From NCBI RefSeq assembly GCF_012516375.2, contig NZ_CP051204.2, forward strand, positions 2,356,001 through 2,420,000: 64,000 bases of DNA, written 5' to 3'. The notes under the pieces were generated by a model. That model was not told where the DNA came from. It was given only the letters and a program-made list of their open reading frames with translations, and made no database searches. Every line of letters starts with the position of its first letter. The stretch's first letter is position 1. The DNA is from Chitinophaga oryzae (GTDB lineage: Bacteria > Bacteroidota > Bacteroidia > Chitinophagales > Chitinophagaceae). Shown here piece after piece: positions 1 through 57,327 of this stretch. Position numbers and translations under genes: made by a program.

Positions 1-124
1 GTAAATTGACGGATAAATCGATTTTACACTGCCACTGAAACCTGCATTGTAGATTGGGACAAGGGAAAGCTGAAAACCTTCAGAAAAGAGTAGGCGCCAT
101 GTTTTTCGCGTTAAACCGTCTGTT

Positions 125-262
125 ATGAAAAAGAAAACAAAGAAAAAGCTCGACATTACCAAAATGAAACTGGTAAAACTGAATGAAGCCGGCCAGAAGA
201 AAGCCGAAAAAGCCACTATTCCTCCAAATACATTCTGGTGTACAACCACCGGTCTCGTATAA
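125..262 (+). CDS. Class I lanthipeptide-like RiPP precursor peptide (45 aa)
   Basis: A short frame with a lysine-rich leader, MKKKTKKKLDITKMKLVKLN, followed by a linker (EAGQKKAEKA) and a short tail TIPPNTFWCTTTGLV. The leader pattern K-K-L-x-I-x-K-x-x-L-x-x-LN is what I know from the short class I lanthipeptide precursors of Bacteroidota, where the tail supplies Ser/Thr for dehydration and Cys for thioether rings. Here the tail has one Cys and five Thr (one before and three directly after the Cys). No LanB, LanC, protease or exporter is visible in this window; they would have to lie upstream of base 1. A strong terminator follows 27 bp downstream, so the gene is the end of a transcript or a single-gene unit. 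The 124 bases before it show no other gene. Function is inferred from leader resemblance only; a random small frame is the alternative. Confidence 0.6.
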   Translation: MKKKTKKKLDITKMKLVKLNEAGQKKAEKATIPPNTFWCTTTGLV

Positions 263-289
263 ACCGAAACAAACAAAACGAACAACATG

Positions 290-317
290 GGCCGATCCGA
301 CAGGATCGGCCTTTTTG
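290..317 (+). terminator. Rho-independent terminator after the precursor peptide gene
   Basis: Perfect 9-bp stem GGCCGATCC (290-298) and GGATCGGCC (303-311) with a 4-nt GACA loop, then five T and a further T-rich run. It isolates the precursor peptide from fecR, whose start is 91 bases further on. Confidence 0.9.
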
Positions 318-407
318 CTTTTTAGCCGCCGCAAATTTTTTTCCTCCTTTTTAGGGAAACCGGTTTTTATCTGTGTCCTTTTCGCAGGTACACTATCTAA
401 CCATTCA

Positions 408-1451
408 ATGAAAGCAGAAAGAATACTGGAGCTGATGGCGCGGAAAGCCGGAAGAGCGGCAGGCAAGGCGGAACTGGAAGAACTGGAACAGCTGCTGGCA
501 GAAAACCCGGACTACCGTTTCCTGGAAAACGTGCTGGACACGGTGGAGGCGCCGGTGCAGGACACAGCCGTCGTAAGAGACGGTTGGGAGAAAATCGAAG
601 CGGTCCTGCAAACATCAGCACAAACGCCCGAAAAGCCTGAAACGCCGGTCATGTCTGCCAGGCGTCCTTTCCGGTGGGCCGCTGCAGCGGTGCTATTGGT
701 GGTTGCAGGTACAGGCATGTGGCGGATGGCCCGGAAAAAACCGGCAGCGCCGGCGCTGCAACAGATCAGTGCACCGATGGGCAGTACTATCAAAGCATTG
801 CTGCCGGATGGCACGCAGGTATGGATCAACGCGGGCAGCCAAATCAGCTATGATGCGCGCTTCGCGGGCAAGAGCAGGGATGTGAATGTGACTGGTGAAG
901 TGTTTTTTGATGTGGCCGCAGATGATAACAAACCATTCATTGTGCATTCCGATAATCTCGCTATCCAGGTGCTGGGCACCTCCTTCAATGTGAAGGCTTA
1001 TGGCGACGATCAGAAAGCGGAGGTAGCCGTCATCACCGGGAAAGTACAGGTGATGATGCGTAACAGCCCCGAGAAAAAAGTAGTACTGCTGCCCCGCGAA
1101 AAACTGGTGCTGTCGCTCGACCAACAGACCATTATCCACGAAGACGACAGCATACAACATGTCAGCTTCCGCGTGCAGGAACTGGCCAGCAGCAAGGATC
1201 CCGGTCTTGTCATGGAGACAGCCTGGCGCCACCAGAAGCTGGCGTTCATGAATGAAACCTTCGCGGAAGTGGCCCGTAAAATGGAAAGACAGTTCAACGT
1301 CAATATCGTTTTTGAAGACGAAACACTGAAGAAAGAAATACTCAGCGGCGTGTTTGAAAAAGAGGATGTCAACAAGGCGCTGCGGCTGTTGCAGATGACC
1401 ACCGGATTCCATTATAGGATAGTACAGCAACAGGTTTACCTGTCCAGATAA
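408..1451 (+). CDS. FecR family anti-sigma factor (347 aa)
   Basis: Inner-membrane anti-sigma protein that relays a signal from the STN domain of a SusC/TonB-dependent receptor to an ECF sigma factor. Visible parts: a short cytoplasmic N-terminal region (about 1-88), one membrane segment (about 89-107, RWAAAAVLLVVAGTGMW), the FecR domain (about 118-215, with LPDGTQVWINAGS and GEVFFDV) and a C-terminal DUF4974 segment (about 275-345). ATG 408 is chosen because the frame upstream of it runs through the terminator at 290-317 and is not FecR-like. It precedes susC by 226 bases, as usual. Odd point: FecR genes normally sit directly behind their ECF sigma gene, and none is present here; the upstream neighbour is a terminated precursor-peptide gene. 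Its sigma partner must be elsewhere or lost. Confidence 0.93.
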   Translation: MKAERILELMARKAGRAAGKAELEELEQLLAENPDYRFLENVLDTVEAPVQDTAVVRDGWEKIEAVLQTSAQTPEKPETPVMSARRPFRWAAAAVLLVVAGTGMWRMARKKPAAPALQQISAPMGSTIKALLPDGTQVWINAGSQISYDARFAGKSRDVNVTGEVFFDVAADDNKPFIVHSDNLAIQVLGTSFNVKAYGDDQKAEVAVITGKVQVMMRNSPEKKVVLLPREKLVLSLDQQTIIHEDDSIQHVSFRVQELASSKDPGLVMETAWRHQKLAFMNETFAEVARKMERQFNVNIVFEDETLKKEILSGVFEKEDVNKALRLLQMTTGFHYRIVQQQVYLSR

Positions 1452-1563
1452 TACATCAGCGCAACATTTTATCAACTCAAAAATCACCTGTAATGAACAC
1501 ACTGTTATACGCACGCGTCACCTGAAAGCATGTATGAGGGATGAGATAAGCTTCATCCGGAAT

Positions 1564-1590
1564 AAAAAAGGGAAGAGGTACGCTCTTCCC
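1564..1590 (-). terminator. Minus-strand terminator in the fecR-susC gap
   Basis: Perfect 8-bp stem with 5-nt loop; the T-tract (six T) lies only on the minus-strand side, while the plus-strand side continues CAAAAGGC. It therefore fits termination of a leftward transcript, not of fecR. No minus-strand protein gene exists here for it to serve. As a plain hairpin it might also act in the plus-strand susC leader. Confidence 0.6.
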
Positions 1591-1665
1591 CAAAAGGCTT
1601 ATGTGTATCTACAGGGGTAAGTCAGCCTGAGAAACTTCACTTACACCCTTCTTTACAAACCTTTC
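1564..1665 (-). ncRNA. Predicted cis-antisense RNA over the susC leader (locus 1)
   Basis: Inferred transcript of about 100 nt. On the minus strand it would start about 6 nt after the TAGATTTG box at 1678-1671 and end at a hairpin (GGGAAGAG at 1570-1577 pairing with CTCTTCCC at 1583-1590, 5-nt loop) followed on the minus strand by six T (A-run 1564-1569). It covers nearly the whole susC 5' leader. Antisense RNAs in the gap between an anti-sigma gene and a susC homologue (DonS type) are known as repressors in Bacteroides. The same arrangement occurs in the second locus of this window. No -33 match is visible 19 nt upstream of the box here, so the promoter call is weaker than at locus 2. Confidence 0.5.
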
Positions 1666-1670
1666 TAAAA

Positions 1671-1678
1671 CAAATCTA
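1671..1678 (-). promoter_or_regulatory. Minus-strand TAnnTTTG box overlapping the susC start codon
   Basis: Plus-strand CAAATCTA, which reads TAGATTTG on the minus strand, an exact match to the Bacteroidota -7 element. Its last base is the A of the susC ATG. The same register is seen at 50565-50572. Confidence 0.5.
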
Positions 1679-4600
1679 TGAAAAAAAGCAGATTTGGAGG
1701 GGCTTCCTATGCGCTCAGCCAGACAGTCAAACTACTCCTCATTATGAAGTTATGTTTTGTTGTGGTGTTATTGTCCTGTTTACATGCTTCAGCCACCGTT
1801 TTTTCGCAGGCGAAATTCACGCTCTCTTTTGTGAAGGCGGACGCTGATAAGATCTTTGCGAAGATCCAGCGGGAAAGCGACTACCGTTTTTTCTATAACT
1901 ATACCGCCATCCGGCAGCTGGGCAAAGTAGACCTGCAGGTGAAGGACGCATCGCTGGCTGAAGTCATGCGGCGGATGCTTGACAGTTCCGCGCTGGCTTT
2001 CCGCATTGTAGACAGGAACCTGGTGGTCATCTCCCCCAAATCAGAACAGGCTGGCAGGGTCGCCGGTAAAGTGGCCGATGAGAAAGGGGTGCCACTGGTA
2101 GGCGTGTCCGTAAAAGTAAAAGGCGGCAGCCAGGGCGCCGTCACCGATGTTAACGGTAACTTCTCCCTGCAGGCCGGCCCGGGCGCTATACTGGTCATCA
2201 GCTACATGGGATTCATCACACAGGAAGTGCCGGTATCCGCCGGCGAACAGCTGATGAACATCACCCTGAAAGAATCTACCAGCGGCCTGAACGAAGTGGT
2301 GGTGATCGGTTACGGCACCCAGCGCAAAAAAGATGTGACGGGCGCCATCAGCTCCGTCAGCAGTAAAGACCTGCGCAACGTGCCGGTGCGCAATGCGGCG
2401 GAAGCCTTACAGGGCAAGGTGAGCGGCGTAACCGTTTCACAGAGCAGCGGCAGCCCCGGATCTGCCCCCGTGGTACGTATCCGCGGTATCGGCTCCATCA
2501 GTGGCAGCAATACCCCGTTGTATATCGTTGACGGTCTCCCGCAAACAGACATCGGATGGCTCAATCCCAACGACATCGAAGCGATGGACATCCTCAAAGA
2601 CGCCTCCACTGCCGCTATCTACGGTTCCAGGGGCTCCAACGGCGTGGTGATCATCACTACCCGCAAAGGCAGCCGTAACGATACCAAAATGCACGTAACG
2701 CTGGATACCTACACCGGCTGGCAATCCGCCTGGAAACGGCCACATATGCTTAACGCAGCAGACTTCATTAAATATAAAACACAGGCTTATAAAGCTGACG
2801 GCGCTCCGCTGCCGACAGATATCGACACACCGGAAAAAGTAGCCCAGGTGCTGAAGTTCGTCAACGATAACTCCGGTCCTGACGGCACCGACTGGTGGAA
2901 AGAAATTATTCAGCAGAACGCTCCCGTCCAGAGCTACAACGTAGGCGTGAGCGGCGCGGGCAAAAACCTGGTGTACGCTTCCAGCGCCGGCTATATGAAA
3001 CAGCAGGGCATCGTGAAAGGATCTGACTACGAACGCCTCTCCTGGCGCACCAACGTTACCGCCGATATCAGCTCCCGGGTAAAACTCACCACCAATTTCG
3101 GCCTGATCTATGAAAACCGTCGCAATGTGGATGAGAACAACCCTTTCACCGGTACCATTTTCAGCGCCATGGCGGCAGACCCGATCACACCGGTATACCG
3201 CAATAACCTGAAAAGCGTCCCCGCTTTTTATCAGCGTATCATGACCGGCTACGAAGCCAATAACCCCTATTCCCAATACGCCGGTATCCTCTTTACCAAC
3301 AAACCCAATCCGGTGGCCCAGGTGGAGCGTATGCAGCAGAGCGTGTGGGAAGGCATCGCCATCAAAGGCGGCGCAGCGCTGGATGTGAAAATCATCGATC
3401 CGCTGACTTTCCGCAGCAATTTCGGGATGGACCTCGGACGCGGCCTCTCCAAAGGATTCACTCCGGCCTACTTCCTGAACTCATTTGATTACGCCACATA
3501 TAACACCGTCAGCAACAGCTCCAGCTGGAGCAACTATTTCGTATGGGAGAATACACTGAACTTCGACAAGACCTTCGGTAAACACCACATCACAGCACTG
3601 GCAGGTATTTCCGCGGAACTGACAAAAGGATTGTCTTACGCCGCTTCCAAACAGAACATCGTGAACAACGAGCCTGACATGCGTATCATCGATGCGGCCA
3701 CGATGAATCCCGGCGCTTCCGGTTCTACGTACTCCAGCGCCCTGCAGTCGTTTTTCGGCCGTATCAACTACGTATATGCGGACCGTTATATTCTGGCCGC
3801 TAATGTGCGCCGGGACGGCAGTTCCAACTTCGGCGACGGTTACCGCTGGGGCACCTTCCCCTCCGCTTCCGCCGCCTGGCGCTTCTCCGAAGAAAACTTC
3901 ATGAAAAACGCTAACCTGAAATGGCTGACCAGCGGCAAGCTGAGAGCCAGCTACGGCGCCATCGGCAACCAGTATGTGAATACCAGCGGACTGTATCTGT
4001 CAACCTACGGTAACACTTATTTCCGTTACCTTTTTGGCAACACCAGCACAGGTTACCTGGGAGCAGAACGGCAAACCATGGCCAATCCCAGCCTGCAATG
4101 GGAAACCTCCAAACAGACTGACCTCGCGCTGGACCTGACCCTCTGGGATGGCCTGCTCGATCTGACGGTGGATTACTATAACAAGAAAGTAAGCAATATG
4201 CTGGTGGTGGTACCCATACCTACCACTATGGGATACCCAAGGGTGGATTTCTGGACCAACGCCGGCAGCATGGTCAACAAGGGCTGGGAAGTATCACTGG
4301 GGCACAGCCATCATATCGGGGACTTCTCGTATAATGTACGCCTCAACGTATCCACTTTCCGCAACGAAGTGCTGAGCATGGGCGGCGGAGAACCTATCTA
4401 TACCACCGCACACCTCGGCGAAACGATCAGCAAAACAGAAGTAGGCAAACCCGTAGGTTACTATTTCGGATGGCTGACAGACGGTATTTTCCAGACACAG
4501 GCAGAAGTGGACAAAAGCCCGCAGCGCCTCAGCTCCCGCCCGGGCGATATCCGTTTTAAAGATATCAACGGGGTAGATGCCAACGGTAACATCGTGCCCG

Positions 4601-5148
4601 GCCCCGACGGAAAACTGGACGCTGCCGACCGCACCATGATCGGTAACCCGTGGCCCGATTTCGTCTATGGCCTGAACATCAACCTGAACTACAAACGTTT
4701 CGACCTCGGCATGTTCTGGCAGGGATCACAGGGCAATGATGTGATGAACATCCTGCGGTATGATACCGAGTCCGGCACCGGCTGGTACAATGCCCCCCAG
4801 GGCTTCCTGGAAAAATCCTGGAACGGCCCCGGCTCTACCAACAAGTATTTCCGCATCTCTTCCAATTCAGCGCTCAACAGCAGCGTGTCGGACTACTTCG
4901 TGGAAGACGGTTCCTACCTGCGGTTGAAAAACATTCAGCTGGGTTACAACTTCCCGGAAAAATGGCTGGAACGCGCCCGTATACCACAGTTACGGTTATA
5001 CGTAGGTGCACAGAACCTGTTCACCTTCACCAATTACAGCGGCCTCGATCCGGAAATGGGTAACTCCGATCCGCGCCTGATCGGTATCGATCAGGGCTAC
5101 TTCCCGCAGGCCCGCACTTTTATGGTAGGCGTGAACGCTAAATTTTAA
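1678..5148 (+). CDS. SusC/RagA-type TonB-dependent outer-membrane receptor with STN domain (1156 aa)
   Basis: Outer-membrane active transporter that forms a complex with the SusD lipoprotein encoded next. Order of parts: N-terminal extension plus signal peptide (membrane stretch MKLCFVVVLLSCLHASATVF, about 24-43), STN signalling domain (about 48-115) which talks to FecR, a carboxypeptidase-regulatory-like beta-sandwich (about 125-195), the plug with the SusC signature VVVIGYGTQRKKDVTGAISS (about 205-325), then the beta barrel to the C-terminal aromatic-rich end (FMVGVNAKF). The STN domain means transcription is probably induced through FecR. susD follows after 18 bases. The start codon overlaps a predicted antisense promoter. 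Confidence 0.97.
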   Translation: MKKSRFGGASYALSQTVKLLLIMKLCFVVVLLSCLHASATVFSQAKFTLSFVKADADKIFAKIQRESDYRFFYNYTAIRQLGKVDLQVKDASLAEVMRRMLDSSALAFRIVDRNLVVISPKSEQAGRVAGKVADEKGVPLVGVSVKVKGGSQGAVTDVNGNFSLQAGPGAILVISYMGFITQEVPVSAGEQLMNITLKESTSGLNEVVVIGYGTQRKKDVTGAISSVSSKDLRNVPVRNAAEALQGKVSGVTVSQSSGSPGSAPVVRIRGIGSISGSNTPLYIVDGLPQTDIGWLNPNDIEAMDILKDASTAAIYGSRGSNGVVIITTRKGSRNDTKMHVTLDTYTGWQSAWKRPHMLNAADFIKYKTQAYKADGAPLPTDIDTPEKVAQVLKFVNDNSGPDGTDWWKEIIQQNAPVQSYNVGVSGAGKNLVYASSAGYMKQQGIVKGSDYERLSWRTNVTADISSRVKLTTNFGLIYENRRNVDENNPFTGTIFSAMAADPITPVYRNNLKSVPAFYQRIMTGYEANNPYSQYAGILFTNKPNPVAQVERMQQSVWEGIAIKGGAALDVKIIDPLTFRSNFGMDLGRGLSKGFTPAYFLNSFDYATYNTVSNSSSWSNYFVWENTLNFDKTFGKHHITALAGISAELTKGLSYAASKQNIVNNEPDMRIIDAATMNPGASGSTYSSALQSFFGRINYVYADRYILAANVRRDGSSNFGDGYRWGTFPSASAAWRFSEENFMKNANLKWLTSGKLRASYGAIGNQYVNTSGLYLSTYGNTYFRYLFGNTSTGYLGAERQTMANPSLQWETSKQTDLALDLTLWDGLLDLTVDYYNKKVSNMLVVVPIPTTMGYPRVDFWTNAGSMVNKGWEVSLGHSHHIGDFSYNVRLNVSTFRNEVLSMGGGEPIYTTAHLGETISKTEVGKPVGYYFGWLTDGIFQTQAEVDKSPQRLSSRPGDIRFKDINGVDANGNIVPGPDGKLDAADRTMIGNPWPDFVYGLNINLNYKRFDLGMFWQGSQGNDVMNILRYDTESGTGWYNAPQGFLEKSWNGPGSTNKYFRISSNSALNSSVSDYFVEDGSYLRLKNIQLGYNFPEKWLERARIPQLRLYVGAQNLFTFTNYSGLDPEMGNSDPRLIGIDQGYFPQARTFMVGVNAKF

Positions 5149-48650: not shown

Positions 48651-49208
48651 ATGCCCGCTTACCACGTATACGAGGACAGTGAACTGCTTGACTTTATGAA
48701 GTCGGGCAATGAAGCCGCATTTGATGAAATCTACCACCGCCACTGGCATACCCTCTATCACGCCGCCTATTACCTGTTGCAGGAAGAAGCGCCCGCTATG
48801 GACATCGTACAGGACGTATTCGTCTGGTTCTGGGAACATCGCGACCACCTGGTGCTGACCACCCTGCGGGGGTATCTCCTGATGGCGGTACGTTATAAAG
48901 CCGCCAACTATTTCCGCCGCCGGAAAGTACGCGCCGCCTTTGCCGCAGAAACAGCCATGCAGGCCCGTGAAGAAGGCGCCCTCGACCACGCGCTGGAACT
49001 GAAAGAACTGAAAGCCGTGATCGCTCACTTCACCGCCACACTGCCCGACCGCTGCCGGGAAGTATTCCAACTGAGCCGGCAGGACCACTTGTCGAACCGT
49101 GAAATCGCCCGTCAACTGGGCATTTCGGAGAAAACGGTGGAAAACCAACTGACGATTGCATTGAAGAAATTAAGAGTAAGACTGGGAAGTATGAGTTTGT
49201 TGATGTGA
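48651..49208 (+). CDS. ECF RNA polymerase sigma factor (185 aa)
   Basis: Extracytoplasmic-function sigma-70 factor of the Bacteroidota FecI-like type. Region 2 (about 10-85: FMKSGNEAAFDEIYHRHWHT, MDIVQDVFVWFWEHRDHL) and region 4 (about 125-180: LPDRCREVFQLSRQDHLSNR, EIARQLGISEKTVENQLTIA) are complete. It begins the second utilisation locus; fecR follows after 111 bases. It is expected to direct transcription of susC-susD when released by FecR. Confidence 0.95.
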   Translation: MPAYHVYEDSELLDFMKSGNEAAFDEIYHRHWHTLYHAAYYLLQEEAPAMDIVQDVFVWFWEHRDHLVLTTLRGYLLMAVRYKAANYFRRRKVRAAFAAETAMQAREEGALDHALELKELKAVIAHFTATLPDRCREVFQLSRQDHLSNREIARQLGISEKTVENQLTIALKKLRVRLGSMSLLM

Positions 49209-49319: not shown

Positions 49320-50432
49320 ATGGAACAGGAAAAACTACAACATTTATTCGGTAAGATCAGCGACGGCACTGCCACGGACGAGGAAATGGCCTTGTATCTG
49401 CGGTATTGCGCATCCGCTGAGCAGGAGGGCGAACGCATGCTGCCACCGCCTGGTACCAAAGGGGTGGAGGAGCGGATGCTGGAGGCCATTCACCAGCGTA
49501 CCGGCCGCGGAAAACCGCGCCGTATGAGGTGGTACTGGTATGCTGCAGCAGCTATGCTGACCGGCCTCATTGCGCTGGCGGTATACCTGAAACCGGCAAG
49601 GCATGCTGCCAGGCCGGCACTGGCTACAGCCGTGCAACAAGACCTCCCGGCCGGCAGCGATAAAGCAGTGCTGACCCTCGCCAACGGTAAAAAGATCACG
49701 CTGGGAACAGCCGATGATGAGGCGCTGGCAAGGCAGGCTGGTCTGCGGGTGTACCGGAGCGACAGCGGCGAGATCGTCTATGAGGCCACCGGCGCCGGTA
49801 GCGGTTTCCATGAAATAGCCACCCCCCGCGGCGGACAATACCGGGTAGTACTACAGGACGGCAGCAAAGTATGGCTCAATGCCGCTTCTTCCCTTCGTTA
49901 TCCGGCCACCTTCACCGGCAGCACCCGGACAGTGCAACTCAAGGGAGAGGCCTACTTCGAAATTGCCGGTAACGCCCGTCAGCCTTTCATCGTGCAAACA
50001 CCATCGCAACAGGTGGAAGTATTAGGCACGCATTTCAATGTAAACGCCTACGATGACAATACGCATACGCAGACGACATTGCTCGAAGGCCGCGTAAAAG
50101 TCAGCGCAGGCGGCAACGGACTGATATTACGTCCCGGAGAACAGGCCCGCCTCACCCACCAGGGCGCCTTGTCCAAAGCCCCGGCAGACGCGAACGCCGC
50201 CATCGCCTGGAAAAACGGGTATTTTATTTTTAATGAAACGTATCTCACGGAAGTGTTGCAACAACTCTCCCGCTGGTATGATGTAGAGGCAGATCTCAAA
50301 ACAATTCCAACAATGCGTTACAACGGCGTTATTCCACGGAACGTACCGCTGTCAAAAGCTTTGGAGATGCTCGAATTCACCGGCGGCGTAAAATTCAGCG
50401 TGAACAATAACAAAATCAGTATCAGACATTAA
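49320..50432 (+). CDS. FecR family anti-sigma factor (370 aa)
   Basis: Partner of the ECF sigma factor upstream. Cytoplasmic N-terminal part (about 1-62), membrane helix (about 63-84, YWYAAAAMLTGLIALAVYL), FecR domain (about 155-265: IATPRGGQYRVVLQDGSKVW, LKGEAYFEIAGNARQPFIVQ) and C-terminal DUF4974 domain (about 295-368: FIFNETYLTEVLQQLSRWYD). Complete arrangement sigma-fecR-susC-susD. The 111 bases before it contain a CCCCTTGGGG dyad (about 49272). Confidence 0.95.
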   Translation: MEQEKLQHLFGKISDGTATDEEMALYLRYCASAEQEGERMLPPPGTKGVEERMLEAIHQRTGRGKPRRMRWYWYAAAAMLTGLIALAVYLKPARHAARPALATAVQQDLPAGSDKAVLTLANGKKITLGTADDEALARQAGLRVYRSDSGEIVYEATGAGSGFHEIATPRGGQYRVVLQDGSKVWLNAASSLRYPATFTGSTRTVQLKGEAYFEIAGNARQPFIVQTPSQQVEVLGTHFNVNAYDDNTHTQTTLLEGRVKVSAGGNGLILRPGEQARLTHQGALSKAPADANAAIAWKNGYFIFNETYLTEVLQQLSRWYDVEADLKTIPTMRYNGVIPRNVPLSKALEMLEFTGGVKFSVNNNKISIRH

Positions 50433-50467
50433 AAAAACAAAACAAGGAGGAAAAAAATTCGTCAACC

Positions 50468-50502
50468 AAAAAAAGACCGGCCATGCGTCAACATGACCGG
50501 TC
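50468..50502 (-). terminator. Minus-strand terminator in the second fecR-susC gap
   Basis: Arms GACCGGCCAT (50475-50484) and ATGACCGGTC (50493-50502); T-tract of seven only on the minus strand. No minus-strand protein gene is present to use it. Confidence 0.65.
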
Positions 50503-50559
50503 ACAGATAAGGTAAAACAGTTACCAAACGCACATTCAGTAAACTATTCTTTCACCTAA
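50468..50559 (-). ncRNA. Predicted cis-antisense RNA over the susC leader (locus 2)
   Basis: Inferred transcript of about 90 nt starting about 6 nt after a minus-strand promoter (CTTG, 19 bases, TACATTTG; 50595-50565) and ending at a hairpin with 10-bp arms (50475-50484 and 50493-50502, one G-T pair, 8-nt loop) followed on the minus strand by seven T (A-run 50468-50474). It spans the susC leader. The layout is the same as in locus 1, including the box overlapping the start codon; the intervening sequence is not closely alike, so only the architecture is conserved. Similar RNAs in Bacteroides repress susC. Confidence 0.6.
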
Positions 50560-50564
50560 CCAAG

Positions 50565-50595
50565 CAAATGTATGAATTTCAGAAATCCATACAAG
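50565..50595 (-). promoter_or_regulatory. Minus-strand promoter overlapping the susC start codon
   Basis: Plus-strand CAAATGTA (50565-50572) reads TACATTTG on the minus strand, an exact -7 box; CAAG at 50592-50595 gives CTTG exactly 19 bases upstream of it. The A of the susC ATG is the last base of the box, as in locus 1. Confidence 0.6.
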
Positions 50596-53500
50596 GGGGT
50601 GTTTTGTCCCACCACCAGGAACCCCCGTCACCAGTACCTAACAAAATTTTTAAATGTTATGAAGCTGACGTTTCTGTTGATGACGGTCGCTTTTATGCAG
50701 GTGTCGGCTGCAGCATTTTCGCAGCAGGTGACGCTCAGACTGGAAAAAGCCTCCCTGAAAACAGTGTTCGCCGAAATCCGGCGACAGACCGGGTATGATG
50801 TGCTGTTCAGCACGGAAATACTGGAGAAAGCCACCCCGGTAAGCATATCGGTAAAAGACGCTTCCATCGACGAAGTGATGGCCACAGCGCTCTATCATCA
50901 ACCCCTGTCATACCGGGTCGAAGGGAAAATCATCCTGATTGGCAGCAAAACACTCACCCCCGCCACCGCGCCGCTCCTCGTGAAGATGCCGGTGAAAGGC
51001 CGGGTGACCAACGACAAAGGGGAACCGCTCCCCGGCGTCAGCATCCTCGAGAAAGGGACCGCCAACGGCACCATTACCGACGGACAAGGCGCGTTTTCGC
51101 TCAACGTGCAGGGACCGGCGTCAGTGCTGACGGTCCGCTTTATCGGGTACGCTCAGCAGGACATCAAAGCCGCGGTCACCATGAACATCGTGTTGCTGGA
51201 AGACCTGTCTGCCATGAGCGAAGTAGTGGTAGTGGGCTACGGCTCCCAGAAAAAAGCGAACCTCACCGGCGCCGTCAGCTCCGTGAAAATGGATGAAGTC
51301 CTCGGCGACAGGCCCGTGAGCTCCGCCTCACAAGCCCTGCAGGGCGCGGTCCCGGGCCTGCAGATCACCTACGGCTCCGGACAGCCCGGCACCTCCACAG
51401 CTATCAACATCCGCGGCTATACCTCTATCAACGGCGGCGAACCACTGGTGCTGGTAGACAACGTTCCCATGGACATCGATGATGTAAATCCCAAAGACAT
51501 CGACAACGTTACTGTACTCAAAGACGCAGCGGCAGCGTCTATCTACGGCGCCCGCGCTGCCTTCGGCGTGATACTGGTCACCACCAAAAAAGGAAAGAAA
51601 AACCAGCCCGTCCGCTTTAACTATTCCACCAACTTCACTTTCAGCTCACCTACCACGCTGCCGCAGAAAGCCACGCCGCTGGAACTGGTGCGCGCACTGA
51701 AAGACTTCGGTACCAACTCCTACTGGACCGGCCAGAACGTGAACACCTGGCTGAAACTGCTGGAGGAATACCAGCAAAACCCGGCTGCTTACCCCGACGG
51801 CTATACGACGGTGAACGGCCTGAAATATCCGCTGATGCAAACAGACCTCTACGGTGAACTGTTCAACCGCGGCTTTGAACAGATGCACAACTTCTCTTTC
51901 GGCGGCGGCTCTGAAAAAACAACGTTCCGCGTGTCCGGCGGCTACACCGGGGAAGACGGCATCCTTGTCACCAACAAAGACAAATACACCCGTTATAACT
52001 TCAATGCCTATCTCGGAACGGAGCTGACGAAAAACCTTAACGCCAGCGTCAACCTGTTCTACAAAAACAGCAACCGCACCACGCCGGCAGATTTCGGCAG
52101 CCTGTTCTACAACGCGATCACCTACAGTTCGTATATACCTACCGGTTATGGTACCGCTCCTAACGGCGATGTGCTGCCTTATAACACGCCGAACAACGTG
52201 GTGCGTACAGAGCCGGTCAACACGGCCTTTGGAGACGATCTGCGCCTGTTCGGTAAACTGGAGTACAATCCGCTGAACGGATTAAAGATCACCGGAGAAT
52301 ATACCTACAACAAAAAGAATGAGGACAACCGGCAGATCAGGGGTAAAAATGAATACATCAATGCCGCCACCTACGACCGGCAGTTCCTCAACAACAATAC
52401 CCGCTACACCCGCGCCAATGACCGCACGGTGTACCAGGCGGTCAACCTATACGCGAGTTATACCAAAGCGCTGGGGCAGCACCACGCCACCGTACTGATC
52501 GGTACCAACCAGGAAATCAGCAAGCAGGAAAACTTCAGTATCAACCGGCTGGACATCCTCAGCCCGCAGGTACCTTCCCTGTCTACCTCCACGGGCACCA
52601 TCGCCGGCGGCGACGGCTTCGGCGAGTACGCTATTTCCGGTTATTTCGGACGCATCAACTATGACTACAAAAACAAATACCTGCTGGAAGTAAACGGCCG
52701 TTTCGATGGCTCCAGCCGCTTTGCACCGGGCCACCGCTTCGGTTTCTTCCCCTCCGTGTCTGCCGGCTGGAATGTGAGTGAAGAAGCTTTTATGAAACCA
52801 CTCAGCCCGGTGCTGTCACAATGGAAACTGCGTGCGTCCTTTGGCGAAATCGGCAACCAGGTGGTGTTTAAAACAGATAAAGCGGGCAACAGGGTCCCTA
52901 ACTATTATCCTTATATCCCTGGCATGGAACCCTACAACGCCGCCTGGACGGACCCCGCGACCAACATCCGTTATGTGTCGCTGGGCATGCCTGCACTGGT
53001 TAGCTCCGACTTCACCTGGGAAACAGTACGTACCCTCGATTTCGGTACAGACTTCAGCCTGTTCCGCGACCGCCTCAATACCACGTTCGACTGGTACCGC
53101 CGCAGCACGCTGAACATGCTGGCGCCAGGCGCGGAACTGCCTGCCATCCTGGGCGCTCCCGCACCATTGCAGAACGTGGCCGATCTGGAATCCAAAGGCT
53201 GGGAACTGCAGATGTCCTGGAAAGATAAAATAAGGTCAGTGAGCTACTCCATCGGCTTCAACCTGTCAGACAGCCGCGCTTTCATTACCCGGTACAACAA
53301 CCCCGCCGGCCTGCTGAACATCAACGCAAACGGGCAGCTGGACAACTACTACACCGGGCAGGAGATCGGGGAGATATGGGGCTTCGGCACCTATGGATTT
53401 TACACCGTAGATGATTTCCGGAAAGGATCGCTGGACGCTAACCTGCAGAAAGGCACGCTGTTGCCCGGTGTGCCCGGATACCGCGGCGTACCGCAGAACC

Positions 53501-54093
53501 CCGGTGATATCCGCTATGAAGACCTGAACGGCGACGGCCAGATTTTCACCGGCAATAACACGCTGTCAGATCCGGGCGACCGGAAAATTATCGGCAACAG
53601 CCAGCGCCGCTTCCAGTTCGGTATCTTCGGCAACGCCTCCTGGAATAATTTCGATTTCTCCTTCTTCCTGCAGGGCGTGGGCAAAAGAGACCTGTGGCTG
53701 AGCAACCAGCTGTACTGGCCCTATCTCAACCAGTTCGGCACCATGTACAAACACAATCTCGACTACTGGACGCCTTCCAATCCCAATGGCTTTTATCCGC
53801 GCGGCTATCCTGATGGCGCCGGTAACGCAGACAAGAGCCGTTTCGTGCAGACAAAGTATTTATCCAACGGCGCTTACCTGCGGGTGAAAAATATCACGCT
53901 GGGATACACTGTTCCCAAGTCGCTGCTGAAACGCATTTTCATCGATAATATCCGTGTATTCGTGACCGGTGAAAACCTTTTCACCTTCGATCACCTGCCG
54001 GATGGTATGGAGGCTGACGCCAATATCGTGAGCGACGGCGGTATCTATCCTTTCCTGAAGAAATACAGCTTCGGTCTAAATGTTAATTTCTAA
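50572..54093 (+). CDS. SusC/RagA-type TonB-dependent outer-membrane receptor with STN domain (1173 aa)
   Basis: Outer-membrane transporter of the second locus. N-terminal extension (about 1-30) then signal segment (MKLTFLLMTVAFMQVSAAAF), STN domain (about 52-118: LKTVFAEIRRQTGYDVLFST), carboxypeptidase-regulatory-like domain (about 140-210), plug with VVVVGYGSQKKANLTGAVSS (about 220-335) and barrel ending GLNVNF. ATG 50572 is chosen over the in-frame ATG at 50659 because it has the same CAAAnnTATG context as the first susC start, and the extended N-terminus is a common Chitinophaga trait. susD follows 18 bases later. Confidence 0.97.
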   Translation: MNFRNPYKGVFCPTTRNPRHQYLTKFLNVMKLTFLLMTVAFMQVSAAAFSQQVTLRLEKASLKTVFAEIRRQTGYDVLFSTEILEKATPVSISVKDASIDEVMATALYHQPLSYRVEGKIILIGSKTLTPATAPLLVKMPVKGRVTNDKGEPLPGVSILEKGTANGTITDGQGAFSLNVQGPASVLTVRFIGYAQQDIKAAVTMNIVLLEDLSAMSEVVVVGYGSQKKANLTGAVSSVKMDEVLGDRPVSSASQALQGAVPGLQITYGSGQPGTSTAINIRGYTSINGGEPLVLVDNVPMDIDDVNPKDIDNVTVLKDAAAASIYGARAAFGVILVTTKKGKKNQPVRFNYSTNFTFSSPTTLPQKATPLELVRALKDFGTNSYWTGQNVNTWLKLLEEYQQNPAAYPDGYTTVNGLKYPLMQTDLYGELFNRGFEQMHNFSFGGGSEKTTFRVSGGYTGEDGILVTNKDKYTRYNFNAYLGTELTKNLNASVNLFYKNSNRTTPADFGSLFYNAITYSSYIPTGYGTAPNGDVLPYNTPNNVVRTEPVNTAFGDDLRLFGKLEYNPLNGLKITGEYTYNKKNEDNRQIRGKNEYINAATYDRQFLNNNTRYTRANDRTVYQAVNLYASYTKALGQHHATVLIGTNQEISKQENFSINRLDILSPQVPSLSTSTGTIAGGDGFGEYAISGYFGRINYDYKNKYLLEVNGRFDGSSRFAPGHRFGFFPSVSAGWNVSEEAFMKPLSPVLSQWKLRASFGEIGNQVVFKTDKAGNRVPNYYPYIPGMEPYNAAWTDPATNIRYVSLGMPALVSSDFTWETVRTLDFGTDFSLFRDRLNTTFDWYRRSTLNMLAPGAELPAILGAPAPLQNVADLESKGWELQMSWKDKIRSVSYSIGFNLSDSRAFITRYNNPAGLLNINANGQLDNYYTGQEIGEIWGFGTYGFYTVDDFRKGSLDANLQKGTLLPGVPGYRGVPQNPGDIRYEDLNGDGQIFTGNNTLSDPGDRKIIGNSQRRFQFGIFGNASWNNFDFSFFLQGVGKRDLWLSNQLYWPYLNQFGTMYKHNLDYWTPSNPNGFYPRGYPDGAGNADKSRFVQTKYLSNGAYLRVKNITLGYTVPKSLLKRIFIDNIRVFVTGENLFTFDHLPDGMEADANIVSDGGIYPFLKKYSFGLNVNF

Positions 54094-54111: not shown

Positions 54112-55890
54112 ATGAACCGTATTCAACATATTGTTTCCGTTGCTGCTGCCGCCTTGTTGCTGCACAGCTGCCAGGGCCGGCTGGACCTGCAACCAAAAGA
54201 CCAGCTCACAGAGAAAACCACGTTTACACAATACGATAATATCAAAGCTTACGCATGGCAGTTCTATGAAGTGTTTCCCGGATACAGCAGCGCCAACGTG
54301 AATAAAGAATATGACGGGGACCTGTTCCTGAATGCCAACCCCAACGGGGAGTCCAACTGGATATGGCAGCGCGTTACCATCCCGTCGTCTTCTGATGATT
54401 ATAAAGATCCCTATGCACGGATCCGCGCGGTGAACATCATGCTCGATAACCTGGACCAGTCGCCCATTTCAGCGGCTGATAAAGACCACTGGCGCAGCGT
54501 GGGATATTTTTTCCGCGCTTACAGCTATGCCAACCTGGTGAATAAATACGGCGATGTGCAGTGGGTAGAGAAGGCATTGTCGGACGGCGATGTGGACCAG
54601 CTTTACGCCAAACGTACGCCCCGCGCAGCAGTGACGCAAAAGATCCTCGATCAGCTGCTGTGGGCGGAAGCACATATCAAACCTGCCGGCGACGGTCCCA
54701 ATACCATCAATGTACATGTTGTGCGGGCGCTGATTTCCCGTTTCGGGCTTACGGAAGGCACCTGGCGCAGGTACCACCAGCTTGGTGATCCGCTGCCTTA
54801 CCTGCGCGCCAGCGCTGATGCCGCTGCCAAACTGGTAAAAGATTTTCCGCTGCTGAACCCTAACTACGACCTGGATTTCAACAGCGAGTCGCTGGCCAAC
54901 GTACCGGGCATCCTGCTGTATAAACAGTACGAACAAACGCAGGTGTTCCATTCGCTGGCATCGCTGGGCCGTAACTCCGCAGGCCGCTGGGACCTGACCA
55001 AAAAGGCGGTGGACATGTACCTGATGACAGACGGGCAAACCCGCTGGACCAGTCAGCAGTTTGCCGGTGATCAGTCTCCCTACACCGAGTTCCGCAACCG
55101 TGACAAACGTTTATACTTCACCGTGCCGCCACCGTTTAAAGTGGTGGTGAACCATCCCAGCATGAACTGGCAGCCTACCGGCGATCCTGCGGACCAGGAG
55201 TATTTCCCGGTGATGGCCGCTATCTCCGGTCCTAAAAACAAAACGCTGCCTACGCTCAACTGGCAGGGGCTGGTGGTACGGCAGGAGCCGCACTTTGCAG
55301 ACGATAACCGTGGGCAACCTTTTAATGTAACGTATACCGGTTACCGTTTCTATAAGTTCAGCAACAAGATACAGATGGTGCAGAACCTCGATGTGAACGA
55401 TGCGCCCATCTTCCGCATGGGAGAGGTGATGGTCAACTATGCAGAAGCGAAATATGAGCTGGGCGAATTTGATCAGGGCATTGCTGATCAGACGATCAAT
55501 AAACTGCGCGCCCGCGGCGGTGTGGCGCCGTTGCAGCTGGCGGCCATCCCTGCAGACCCTACGCGCGATCCAACGGTAACGCCTGCACTCTGGGAGATAC
55601 GCCGTGAGCGGGCGATAGAGTTGATGGGTGAATCTTTCCGGTTTGACGACCTCCGTCGCTGGAAGAAAATGGACTATGCACTGCAACAGAAACTGGGCCG
55701 CTGGATCAAAAAAGGGGTGGACGTATCCGCCACAGCGCCCATCCCTGTGCAGAACGGCGCTACCGAAGGATACATCGCCTACGAGAAGGTGCCGCCTGCT
55801 CCATTCCCTGAGTATTATTATCTTTATCCGATCCCATCCAATCAAACGGTGCTGAACCCCAGTCTGGTACAGAACCCCGGATGGAAATAA
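54112..55890 (+). CDS. SusD/RagB-type surface glycan-binding lipoprotein (592 aa)
   Basis: Lipoprotein signal MNRIQHIVSVAAAALLLHSC with the acyl Cys at residue 20. SusD helical domain and C-terminal domain are complete: DLQPKDQLTEKTTFTQYDNI (about 23-42), NIMLDNLDQSPISAADKDHW, FFRAYSYANLVNKYGDVQWV, FRMGEVMVNYAEAKYELGEF, IRRERAIELMGESFRFDDLR, and terminal LVQNPGWK. Slightly longer than average. Substrate probably is a sulfated or modified glycan, given the sulfatase next to it (inference). Confidence 0.97.
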   Translation: MNRIQHIVSVAAAALLLHSCQGRLDLQPKDQLTEKTTFTQYDNIKAYAWQFYEVFPGYSSANVNKEYDGDLFLNANPNGESNWIWQRVTIPSSSDDYKDPYARIRAVNIMLDNLDQSPISAADKDHWRSVGYFFRAYSYANLVNKYGDVQWVEKALSDGDVDQLYAKRTPRAAVTQKILDQLLWAEAHIKPAGDGPNTINVHVVRALISRFGLTEGTWRRYHQLGDPLPYLRASADAAAKLVKDFPLLNPNYDLDFNSESLANVPGILLYKQYEQTQVFHSLASLGRNSAGRWDLTKKAVDMYLMTDGQTRWTSQQFAGDQSPYTEFRNRDKRLYFTVPPPFKVVVNHPSMNWQPTGDPADQEYFPVMAAISGPKNKTLPTLNWQGLVVRQEPHFADDNRGQPFNVTYTGYRFYKFSNKIQMVQNLDVNDAPIFRMGEVMVNYAEAKYELGEFDQGIADQTINKLRARGGVAPLQLAAIPADPTRDPTVTPALWEIRRERAIELMGESFRFDDLRRWKKMDYALQQKLGRWIKKGVDVSATAPIPVQNGATEGYIAYEKVPPAPFPEYYYLYPIPSNQTVLNPSLVQNPGWK

Positions 55891-55908
55891 CCCGTAAAAC
55901 TGAACGTG

Positions 55909-57327
55909 ATGATGAAAAAAATTGTTCTACCGCTGCTGTCGGCCTTACTGTTCACAGGGGCGTCCACGCAAGCGCAGCAGCGTCCCAACATCGTGTTTAT
56001 CCTTGCGGATGACCTGGGCTATGGCGACCTGGGCGTATATGGGCAGCAGAAAATCAAAACGCCGAACATTGACCGGCTGGCCCGTCAGGGGATGCTGTTT
56101 ACCCGCTTTTACGCCGGAACGTCCGTGTGTGCGCCGTCCCGCTCTGCGCTGCTGACAGGGCAGCATACCGGTCACACTTACGTGCGCGGCAACAAAGAGA
56201 TACAGCCGGAAGGGCAGGAGCCATTGGCAGACACCGTGCAGAGCTACGCGAAGATGTTGCAGCAGGCCGGTTACGTGACCGGCGCATTCGGAAAATGGGG
56301 ACTGGGCATGGTAGGGACTACCGGTGCGCCCGATAAAAAAGGGTTCGATGTGTTTTACGGATATAACTGCCAGCGGCAGTCGCACCGCTACTATCCCACA
56401 CACCTGTGGAGCAACAACACGCGCATCGACCTGGAAGGCAATGATCTCCGGCAGAAAAAAGTATATGCGCCGGAGTTAATACAGCAACAGACGCTGGCTT
56501 TCATTGAAAACAACCGCAGCAAGCCATTTTTCCTGTTCGTACCGTCTATCCTGCCACACGCAGAATTATCAGGGCCTGACGATCAGTATTACCAACAATA
56601 TGAAAACGCTTTCCCGGAAACGCCGCATAAGGGTAACGACTACGGCCCCGGCGCGTTGGTGCCGGGTTACGCTTCCGTGGAGAAGCCACATGCCACCTAT
56701 GCGGCGATGGTCACCCGCCTGGACGCCTATGTAGGGCAGATCCTCGACAAGCTGGACCAGCTGGGGCTTACTCAAAATACCATCGTTATCTTCAGCAGCG
56801 ACAACGGTGCACACCGTGAAGGCGGCGCCGACCCGGTGTTCTTCAACAGTTCCGCCGGACTGCGGGGTTTCAAACGGGACCTGTATGAAGGCGGTATCCG
56901 CACGCCTTTCATCGTAAAATGGCCAGGCAAGGTGAAAGCGGGCAGCCGCAATGCTTTTGTGGGCGCGTTCTGGGACCTGATGCCTACTTTTACGCAAATC
57001 GCCGGCGCTCCGAAGCCACCCTATACAGATGGTGTTTCCCTGGTGCCCACGCTTATCGGCAAAGGTAAGCAGGCTCAGCATCCTTACCTGTACTGGGAGT
57101 TTCATGAAGACAACGGTACACAGGCCGTACGTATGGGCAAATGGAAAGGGTTCCGCAAAGGAGTGATGAAAGACGCACAGGCGCCGCTGGAGCTGTACGA
57201 CCTCGATAAAGACCCGGCAGAGCAGCACAATGTGGCGGCATCTCATCCCGATATCGTGAAAAAAATAAAAGGATATATGGAGGAAGCACATGTGGAAAGC
57301 CCGGTGTTCCCGCTGACAGCACATTAA
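55909..57327 (+). CDS. Exported sulfatase, type I formylglycine-dependent (472 aa)
   Basis: Hydrolyses sulfate esters, probably on the glycan imported by the locus. Signal MMKKIVLPLLSALLFTGAST-like; metal and catalytic site region NIVFILADDLGYGDLGVYGQ (Asp-Asp), formylglycine motif CAPSR with Cys74 (SVCAPSRSALLTGQHTGHTY), SSDNGAHREGGAD near 295 and the C-terminal subdomain with LPTLIGKGK-type TLIGKGKQAQHPYLYWEFHE. A GTG at 55906 is in frame just before, but ATG 55909 or 55912 is the likely start. It starts 18 bases after susD. An activating formylglycine-generating enzyme is not in this window. Confidence 0.95.
   Translation: MMKKIVLPLLSALLFTGASTQAQQRPNIVFILADDLGYGDLGVYGQQKIKTPNIDRLARQGMLFTRFYAGTSVCAPSRSALLTGQHTGHTYVRGNKEIQPEGQEPLADTVQSYAKMLQQAGYVTGAFGKWGLGMVGTTGAPDKKGFDVFYGYNCQRQSHRYYPTHLWSNNTRIDLEGNDLRQKKVYAPELIQQQTLAFIENNRSKPFFLFVPSILPHAELSGPDDQYYQQYENAFPETPHKGNDYGPGALVPGYASVEKPHATYAAMVTRLDAYVGQILDKLDQLGLTQNTIVIFSSDNGAHREGGADPVFFNSSAGLRGFKRDLYEGGIRTPFIVKWPGKVKAGSRNAFVGAFWDLMPTFTQIAGAPKPPYTDGVSLVPTLIGKGKQAQHPYLYWEFHEDNGTQAVRMGKWKGFRKGVMKDAQAPLELYDLDKDPAEQHNVAASHPDIVKKIKGYMEEAHVESPVFPLTAH

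Follow-up and report, generated by a model that had tools for sequence, protein, structure and literature searches.

The closest described systems are the DonS-type cis-antisense RNAs of Bacteroides, and DonS itself, from Cao et al. 2016, is reportedly linked to ECF/anti-sigma loci. According to the accessible parts of the published reports, RNAs of this type are 78–128 nt long, are divergent to susC homologues and lower their expression; 10 of them, later 32, were annotated in B. thetaiotaomicron, and repression was validated for one in B. fragilis (PMC7366714, PMC10994844). Anticorrelation with the operon was found for several, not all, antisense RNAs of B. thetaiotaomicron (PMC7366714, PMC10994844), some of which correlate positively with their operon (PMC10994844). 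A housekeeping promoter is present for 52% of the B. thetaiotaomicron cis-antisense RNAs (PMC7366714). The main sigma factor of Bacteroidota has the −7 consensus TAnnTTTG and TTTG near −33 (PMC7366714); a related box at −12 to −5 in Flavobacterium psychrophilum is stated to occupy the position of the main motif (PMC9723704). RNAs of the FopS family, as far as the available excerpt goes, are mostly intergenic (9 of 14), are about 65–70 nt long, have a common seed acting in trans and repress susC at the start codon region (PMC11697453).

The window, i.e., the whole analysed stretch of 64,000 nucleotides, belongs to a genome of 8.36 Mb in one contig. The genes of the locus under study are located on the plus strand in the order ECF sigma factor, fecR, susC, susD, sulfatase. 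The ECF sigma factor gene (48651..49208; Pfam Sigma70_r4_2, Sigma70_ECF), judged from its position ahead of fecR to be of the FecI type, is followed by the gene of a FecR-type anti-sigma factor (49320..50432; Pfam FecR 2e-20, FecR_C 6.6e-17). Next are susC (50572..54093; Pfam), encoding a TonB-dependent receptor with an STN domain and a hydrophilic N-terminal extension, susD (54112..55890; Pfam SusD_RagB 5.5e-48) and, 3' of susD, the sulfatase gene (55906..57327; Pfam Sulfatase 1.8e-62). The susC start at 50572 is backed by the in-frame register of the motif CAAANNTATG across loci, and in its best segment this susC is 98% identical to susC of Chitinophaga eiseniae. The gap between fecR and susC is 139 bp. 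A strong Shine–Dalgarno-like word, AAGGAGG, serving no obvious ORF, is located at 50444-50450 and is kept in the four nearest orthologues. The first locus of the window contains genes for a FecR-type anti-sigma factor (183..1451, plus strand; Pfam) and SusC (1678..5148, plus strand; Pfam), the STN match of the latter being slightly under the Pfam cut-off. Rfam RF02914 (DUF805b RNA motif) matches with 40.6 bits at window 60-96 on the plus strand, just 5' of the first fecR.

A candidate promoter on the minus strand overlaps the susC start codon. Its −7 box, TACATTTG (50572-50565, minus strand), matches the consensus TAnnTTTG (PMC7366714) perfectly and overlaps the A of the ATG, while the −33 box CTTG (50592..50595, minus strand; CAAG on the plus strand) falls within the susC coding sequence and is separated from the downstream −7 box by 19 bases. 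The plus strand reads CAAATGTATG at 50565-50574, and the same parts are present at the first locus, namely, CAAATCTATG at 1671-1680 and a hairpin at 1569-1591. The first-pass annotation of this DNA had described the CTTG–N19–(−7 box) promoter (50595-50565), the minus-strand hairpin with a T7 tract in the fecR–susC gap (50502-50468) and the plus-strand motif shared by both loci, and all of these are present. It had placed the last base of the −7 box on the A of the ATG, but this A is paired with the initial T of TACATTTG when the minus strand is read 5' to 3'. Its description of the leaders as otherwise dissimilar holds for the window pair, but a leader motif recurs among susC genes genome-wide. 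The start codon register, claimed to be identical at two loci, is exact in 31 of 36 hand-anchored loci, with the ATG one base further on in four, where the −7 box is nevertheless kept, and neither arrangement in one. As these 36 promoter anchors were hand-picked from 49 loci, the count of 31/36 is not blind; the unanchored register count is 22 of 23 CAAANNTATG loci with the ATG in the susC frame. In positional counts at the 49 loci, bins ≥360 were ignored as an artefact of short sequence.

The TAnnTTTG box is perfect in 22 and has one mismatch in 14 of the 36 hand-anchored loci. Neither this box nor CATACATTTG varies between the window and six named Chitinophaga orthologues, down to 64% protein identity. 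A −33-like CAA occurs 18–20 bases beyond the −7 box at 11 of the 23 motif loci, the −33 box being absent from the other 12; elsewhere, CAA was counted at no more than 2 of 23 loci at any single spacing of 6–39 and at 0–3 of 23 per three-base window between 6 and 41. This peak at promoter spacing argues for a promoter, since a translation signal would not predict it. The antisense promoter falls within the part of susC encoding the hydrophilic N-terminal extension (window 50572-50660). The hydrophilic extension before the signal-peptide core has a median of 25 residues in 31 module susC, 19 in 39 other FecR-linked susC and 8 in 60 susC not linked to FecR.

SusC genes of the genome were listed by the TIGR04057 signature (best 150 of 223 candidates). 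The FecR list, made from the best 150 of 177 candidates, comprised 114 matches, of which 96 were kept and 18 dropped, 17 because they fell within long frames belonging to other genes and one because its frame spans just 56 aa. Weak matches to the FecR_C profile also occur in many SusC-sized long frames (e.g., C1:3259415-3259606), perhaps at STN, which suggests related folds. Among the 150 listed SusC genes, 78 follow FecR. The motif CAAANNTATG was found near the start in 23 of these 78 genes and in none of the other 72; of 594 other ORFs (≥250 codons, same stretches), four have it at an in-frame ATG, one of the four being, by coordinates, an N-terminal fragment from an interrupted FecR-linked susC. 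For 23/78, Fisher's test gives p values of 5e-8 (against 0/72) and 2e-19 (against 4/594), but paralogues were counted as independent, which they are not, and the values are indicative.

These counts bear on the reading that CAAANNTATG is merely the translation-initiation context of susC, the hairpin being unrelated to it. Leaders do carry other constraints, as is evident from the motif that precedes many FecR-linked and other susC genes alike (10 of 22 module loci, 20 of 70 non-FecR susC, 4 of 35 FecR-linked susC without the module), and to this extent the reading is favoured. However, CAAANNTATG avoids the non-FecR susC and is rare before other ORFs, it is accompanied by a −33 box at promoter spacing, and the box stays in place at the four loci with a shifted ATG. 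Translation context was ruled out on these three grounds as the sole explanation, and its probability is taken to be close to nil.

The second part of the module is an intrinsic terminator on the minus strand. A stem-loop of 12 pairs with a 4-nt loop, minus-strand GACCGGTCATGTTGACGCATGGCCGGTC, occupies 50475..50502, as supported by folding, stem covariation and compensatory changes in orthologues, and is followed by a T7 tract at 50468..50474 (A7 on the plus strand). The hairpin begins about 60 bases after the −7 box, and the terminator is located about 90 bases from the promoter. A consensus scan yielded seven terminator-like sites in 2 kb versus 3.0 (sd 2.2) in shuffles, which alone is weak evidence. 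On the minus strand, none of 200 shuffles folds as well as the 168-nt region (z −4.98), whereas on the plus strand 4 of 200 do (z −2.26). An alignment of 28 paralogues made without reference to structure shows changes on both sides in 9 of 10 stem pairs, with 52 double-changed cells versus 14.3 in shuffles and 5–15 in slid controls. Changes in the stem are also compensatory across the six named Chitinophaga orthologues. The terminator finder detected the stem in five of the six; it missed that of C. chungangae (L170), in which the stem is visible and the T run starts a few bases late.

Located between fecR and susC on the sense strand, the same hairpin might function within the sense mRNA, whether as attenuator, as leader structure or as terminator of the sigma–fecR operon, and the plus strand does fold, though less well. 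The plus strand has no T tract, however. Between −220 and +20 of the presumed start, minus-strand terminators were found in 45 of 78 FecR-linked versus 9 of 71 other susC genes (one of the 72 had no ATG), although several of the 45 and most of the nine hairpins are long or weak and may be due to chance; plus-strand terminators in the same interval number 6 of 78 and 5 of 71. Among the nine, the hairpin at 5430086 looks genuine. Outside the family, a plus-strand terminator is present at 1 of 67 FecR loci. The contrast is milder among 34 named FecR-linked loci, with 22 minus-strand and 6 plus-strand terminators; 39 other named loci contain 8 and 9, respectively, some hairpins of the named set being long or weak and likely due to chance. 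This set comprises 73 of 78 related loci, those with too little upstream DNA (L187, L209, L226, L230, L233) having been left out. A strand-neutral stem finder applied to the 23 motif loci gave 218 Watson–Crick pairs, one mismatch and, in the minus reading, 23 G.T versus 5 A.C pairs. An RNA of the minus strand tolerates G.T and one of the plus strand A.C, and the bias favours the antisense strand; at two of the 23 loci, the best hairpin, by eye, is not the one with the T tract, and these two, which were kept, hold four of the five A.C pairs. By the strand counts and this G.T (G.U in RNA) bias, a hairpin or terminator of the sense strand was ruled out, and a role in the sense mRNA is considered very improbable.

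From the boxes and the terminator, an antisense RNA of about 93 nt is predicted at the window locus (50468..50560, minus strand), where a covariance model, for which this is a training locus, matches at 50464-50598 with 77.3 bits. The RNA start was set five bases past the −7 box and is uncertain by a few bases. The predicted RNA is antisense to positions of about −12 to −104 in the susC leader and leaves the start codon uncovered. At the first locus, the hairpin and the −7 box (1671-1678) delimit a predicted RNA of about 105 nt (1562..1666, minus strand), and the model match to this locus, likewise used in training, covers 1557-1704 on the minus strand with 49.5 bits. Across the 36 anchored loci, predicted lengths range from 66 to 124 nt, with a median of 99.5.

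The covariance model, R1 (alignment A1), was built on 28 of the 36 anchored loci; eight with atypical spacing or weaker boxes were omitted. At E ≤ 0.1, it has at least 44 matches in its own genome (best 150 of 2064 candidates scored), and 41 of the 44 listed adjoin FecR genes in antisense position, while one more adjoins susC only. Among the 16 matches outside the training set, 13 are adjacent to FecR, one to susC only and two to neither; the latter are the two weakest of the 44. Of the 44 listed, 39 sit between FecR and a listed SusC gene, in antisense orientation. Thus, at least 39 of the 78 FecR-linked susC genes have a match and the other half has none listed, although at least four further genes (2232346, 3068825, 3478848, 3851467) have the hairpin by folding. 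The median fecR–susC gap is 175 bp with a match and 96 bp without, some of the gaps without a match being long. Two matches, G000:C1:2506853-2506989 and 7742598-7742729, adjoin FecR without a SusC among those listed; a module-like match at G000:C1:5430837-5430985 (L117) precedes susC without a FecR_C neighbour among those listed.

The distributions of CAAANNTATG, of terminators and of model matches indicate that the module goes with FecR control rather than with susC in general. STN-bearing and FecR-linked susC are nearly one set and not separable, as judged by N-terminal length only. The first-pass annotation had held the coincidence of the two loci unlikely to be due to chance, which is borne out by the counts of CAAANNTATG and of minus-strand terminators, and had suggested a general antisense module for the susC genes of the lineage. 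The module is indeed recurrent, but within the genome it goes with the FecR-linked susC, about half of which have it, and it reaches beyond the lineage into some other families. Two outcomes were considered there to be damaging. That most susC leaders lack both features is true of susC overall but not of the FecR-linked half; that the motif is equally common before unrelated genes is contradicted by its frequency among the other ORFs. The promoter boxes, the antisense terminator, its covariation, the association with FecR-linked susC and the conservation are present by sequence.

Compared with described systems, the Chitinophaga module probably acts in the manner of the DonS-type cis-antisense RNAs of Bacteroides, next to which it is best classified. 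Both window loci are antisense to the 5' region of susC, as are 39 of the 44 listed R1 matches; the RNAs predicted at the two loci are of DonS-like size, with 32 of 36 within 78–128 nt as estimated from boxes and terminator only; the module has its own predicted housekeeping promoter; and the adjacency of 41 of the 44 listed matches to FecR resembles the linkage to sigma/anti-sigma loci that is said to hold for DonS. The module may differ from DonS, compared here by description only, in the fixed position of its promoter on the susC start codon, seen in most copies. It differs in its presence in Chitinophagaceae and several other families, with at least about 40 copies in this genome and at least 7–43 in each of all 12 other sampled Chitinophaga genomes (R1 matches at E ≤ 0.01, best 150 candidates per genome). 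Similar to FopS and GibS, it forms a multicopy family with a single-stranded 5' part followed by a terminator hairpin; unlike in FopS, each RNA has full complementarity to the leader of its own susC. Ten module loci gave no match at the gathering score in the Rfam copy used, which may not contain FopS; with the same reservation, the window site has three Rfam matches, all far below the gathering score. The start codon register is not mentioned in the accessible parts of PMC7366714, PMC11697453, PMC10994844, PMC9723704, PMC10861873 and PMC5061871, a search that did not extend to the original DonS paper. What is added to the knowledge of DonS is the reach, the copies per genome, the covariance evidence and the start codon register.

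On this basis, many FecR-controlled susC genes are proposed to be accompanied, each on its opposite strand, by a dedicated gene for a short antisense RNA, which probably lowers expression of the importer; the probability of this reading is put at about 0.8. The housekeeping sigma factor of Bacteroidota would start the RNA from the −7 box overlapping the susC start codon, the −33 box, where present, lying within the first susC codons. The transcript would run about 70–120 nt back through the leader and stop at the intrinsic terminator inside the fecR–susC gap. Made when the importer is not needed, it would form a perfect duplex with its cognate susC mRNA leader, beginning at about −12 and extending upstream, and would block ribosome entry, trigger mRNA decay or both; transcriptional collision or promoter occlusion may add to the effect. 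Binding of the substrate would lead FecR to release the ECF sigma factor, and sense transcription would override the antisense brake. The net outcome would be a brake at each locus holding leaky importer expression low. Both transcription of the antisense RNA and repression of susC are inferred from sequence. Between fecR and the hairpin, no sense promoter was identified; ATCAACC and CGTTATG are enriched there with no fixed spacing by eye, and overlap of the antisense RNA with the sense leader is therefore assumed. GTTATG occurs within 110 bp upstream of the hairpins at 8 of 37 loci versus 0.5 expected and is possibly part of the sense ECF promoter.

The antisense unit might instead work mainly through transcription, by promoter occlusion or collision, with the RNA as a by-product. 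With its promoter placed over the sense start region, the polymerases of the two units, if both are active, must pass through one stretch. On the other hand, the conserved intrinsic terminator and the narrow size range suggest a discrete RNA product, and the 5' end of the RNA can pair with its own leader over its full complementarity, with a median duplex energy of −49 kcal/mol (26 loci). An effect mainly through transcription is regarded as unlikely. Still less likely is a network in which paralogous RNAs also act in trans, one locus silencing other susC genes. The 5' ends of the RNAs pair with leaders of other module loci at −12 kcal/mol or better in 328 of 650 combinations versus 165 of 650 shuffled (26 of the 36 loci), and FopS RNAs of B. 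thetaiotaomicron, according to the available excerpt, bind susC start regions in trans (PMC11697453). However, pairing with leaders of non-FecR susC is near the shuffle level (569 versus 499 of 1846), and the leader motif is general to susC, so that similarity of leaders needs no RNA function. The antisense 5' end was rejected as a family-specific seed: the leader motif that it matches also occurs before other susC genes and does not distinguish module loci, an argument against a dedicated trans seed.

If the proposed cis-acting antisense RNAs exist, the few antisense RNAs known experimentally from gut Bacteroides exemplify a feature that can be predicted from genomes for FecR-controlled importers elsewhere in Bacteroidota, and the covariance model provides a search tool for such modules. 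The module also suggests that the first codons of the susC genes carrying it are under constraint, and it offers a possible handle for switching single importers on or off. The question of why importers switched by a sigma/anti-sigma pair should also need an antisense brake is made testable.

By sequence, the antisense architecture extends beyond Chitinophaga: it is widespread in the family and also occurs in part of the other families of the class. In Chitinophagaceae, R1 matches were found in at least 131 of 244 genomes and at least 62 of 101 genera (E ≤ 0.001, best 13 candidates per genome). Seven genomes were sampled from other families of the order; at E ≤ 0.01 (best 150 candidates per genome), two of them have a single borderline match each (E about 0.009), and five have none listed. 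Both parts are present at named loci outside Chitinophaga, namely, in two Sphingobacteriaceae, a Tannerellaceae MAG, Parabacteroides faecis, a Cytophagaceae MAG and an uncultured Flavobacteriaceae, the hairpin of the last being long and less convincing. It is conceivable, if rather doubtful, that a rule holds across Bacteroidia whereby FecR-controlled importers keep their start and first codons inside their own antisense promoter. Importer and silencer would then compete for 30 base pairs, forming a two-state switch tripped by the ECF factor; the promoter would shape the first codons, and limited cross-pairing could rank substrates.

A model-free count outside the family was based on 70 loci, 30 returned by search and 40 hand-picked, favouring FecR-rich genomes. 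Among 67 FecR loci, 30 have minus-strand terminators, some of them long or weak and likely due to chance, 16 have CAAANNTATG and 13 have both. The motif was found in 11 of 21 loci of family f65 (one genome), 3 of 12 of f48, 1 of 8 of f62 and 1 of 9 of f41. The other 17 FecR loci, from 13 families, contain terminators in two cases and CAAANNTATG in none, and many of them have almost no gap after fecR. In a class sample of 295 genomes, at least 13 genomes outside the family hold at least 18 R1 matches (E ≤ 1e-4, best 11 candidates per genome). Eight of the 18 matches are in FecR-listed genomes (G301, G326, G340, G367, G373), and all eight, with coordinates compared by hand, are located 24–141 bp from a FecR gene on the opposite strand.
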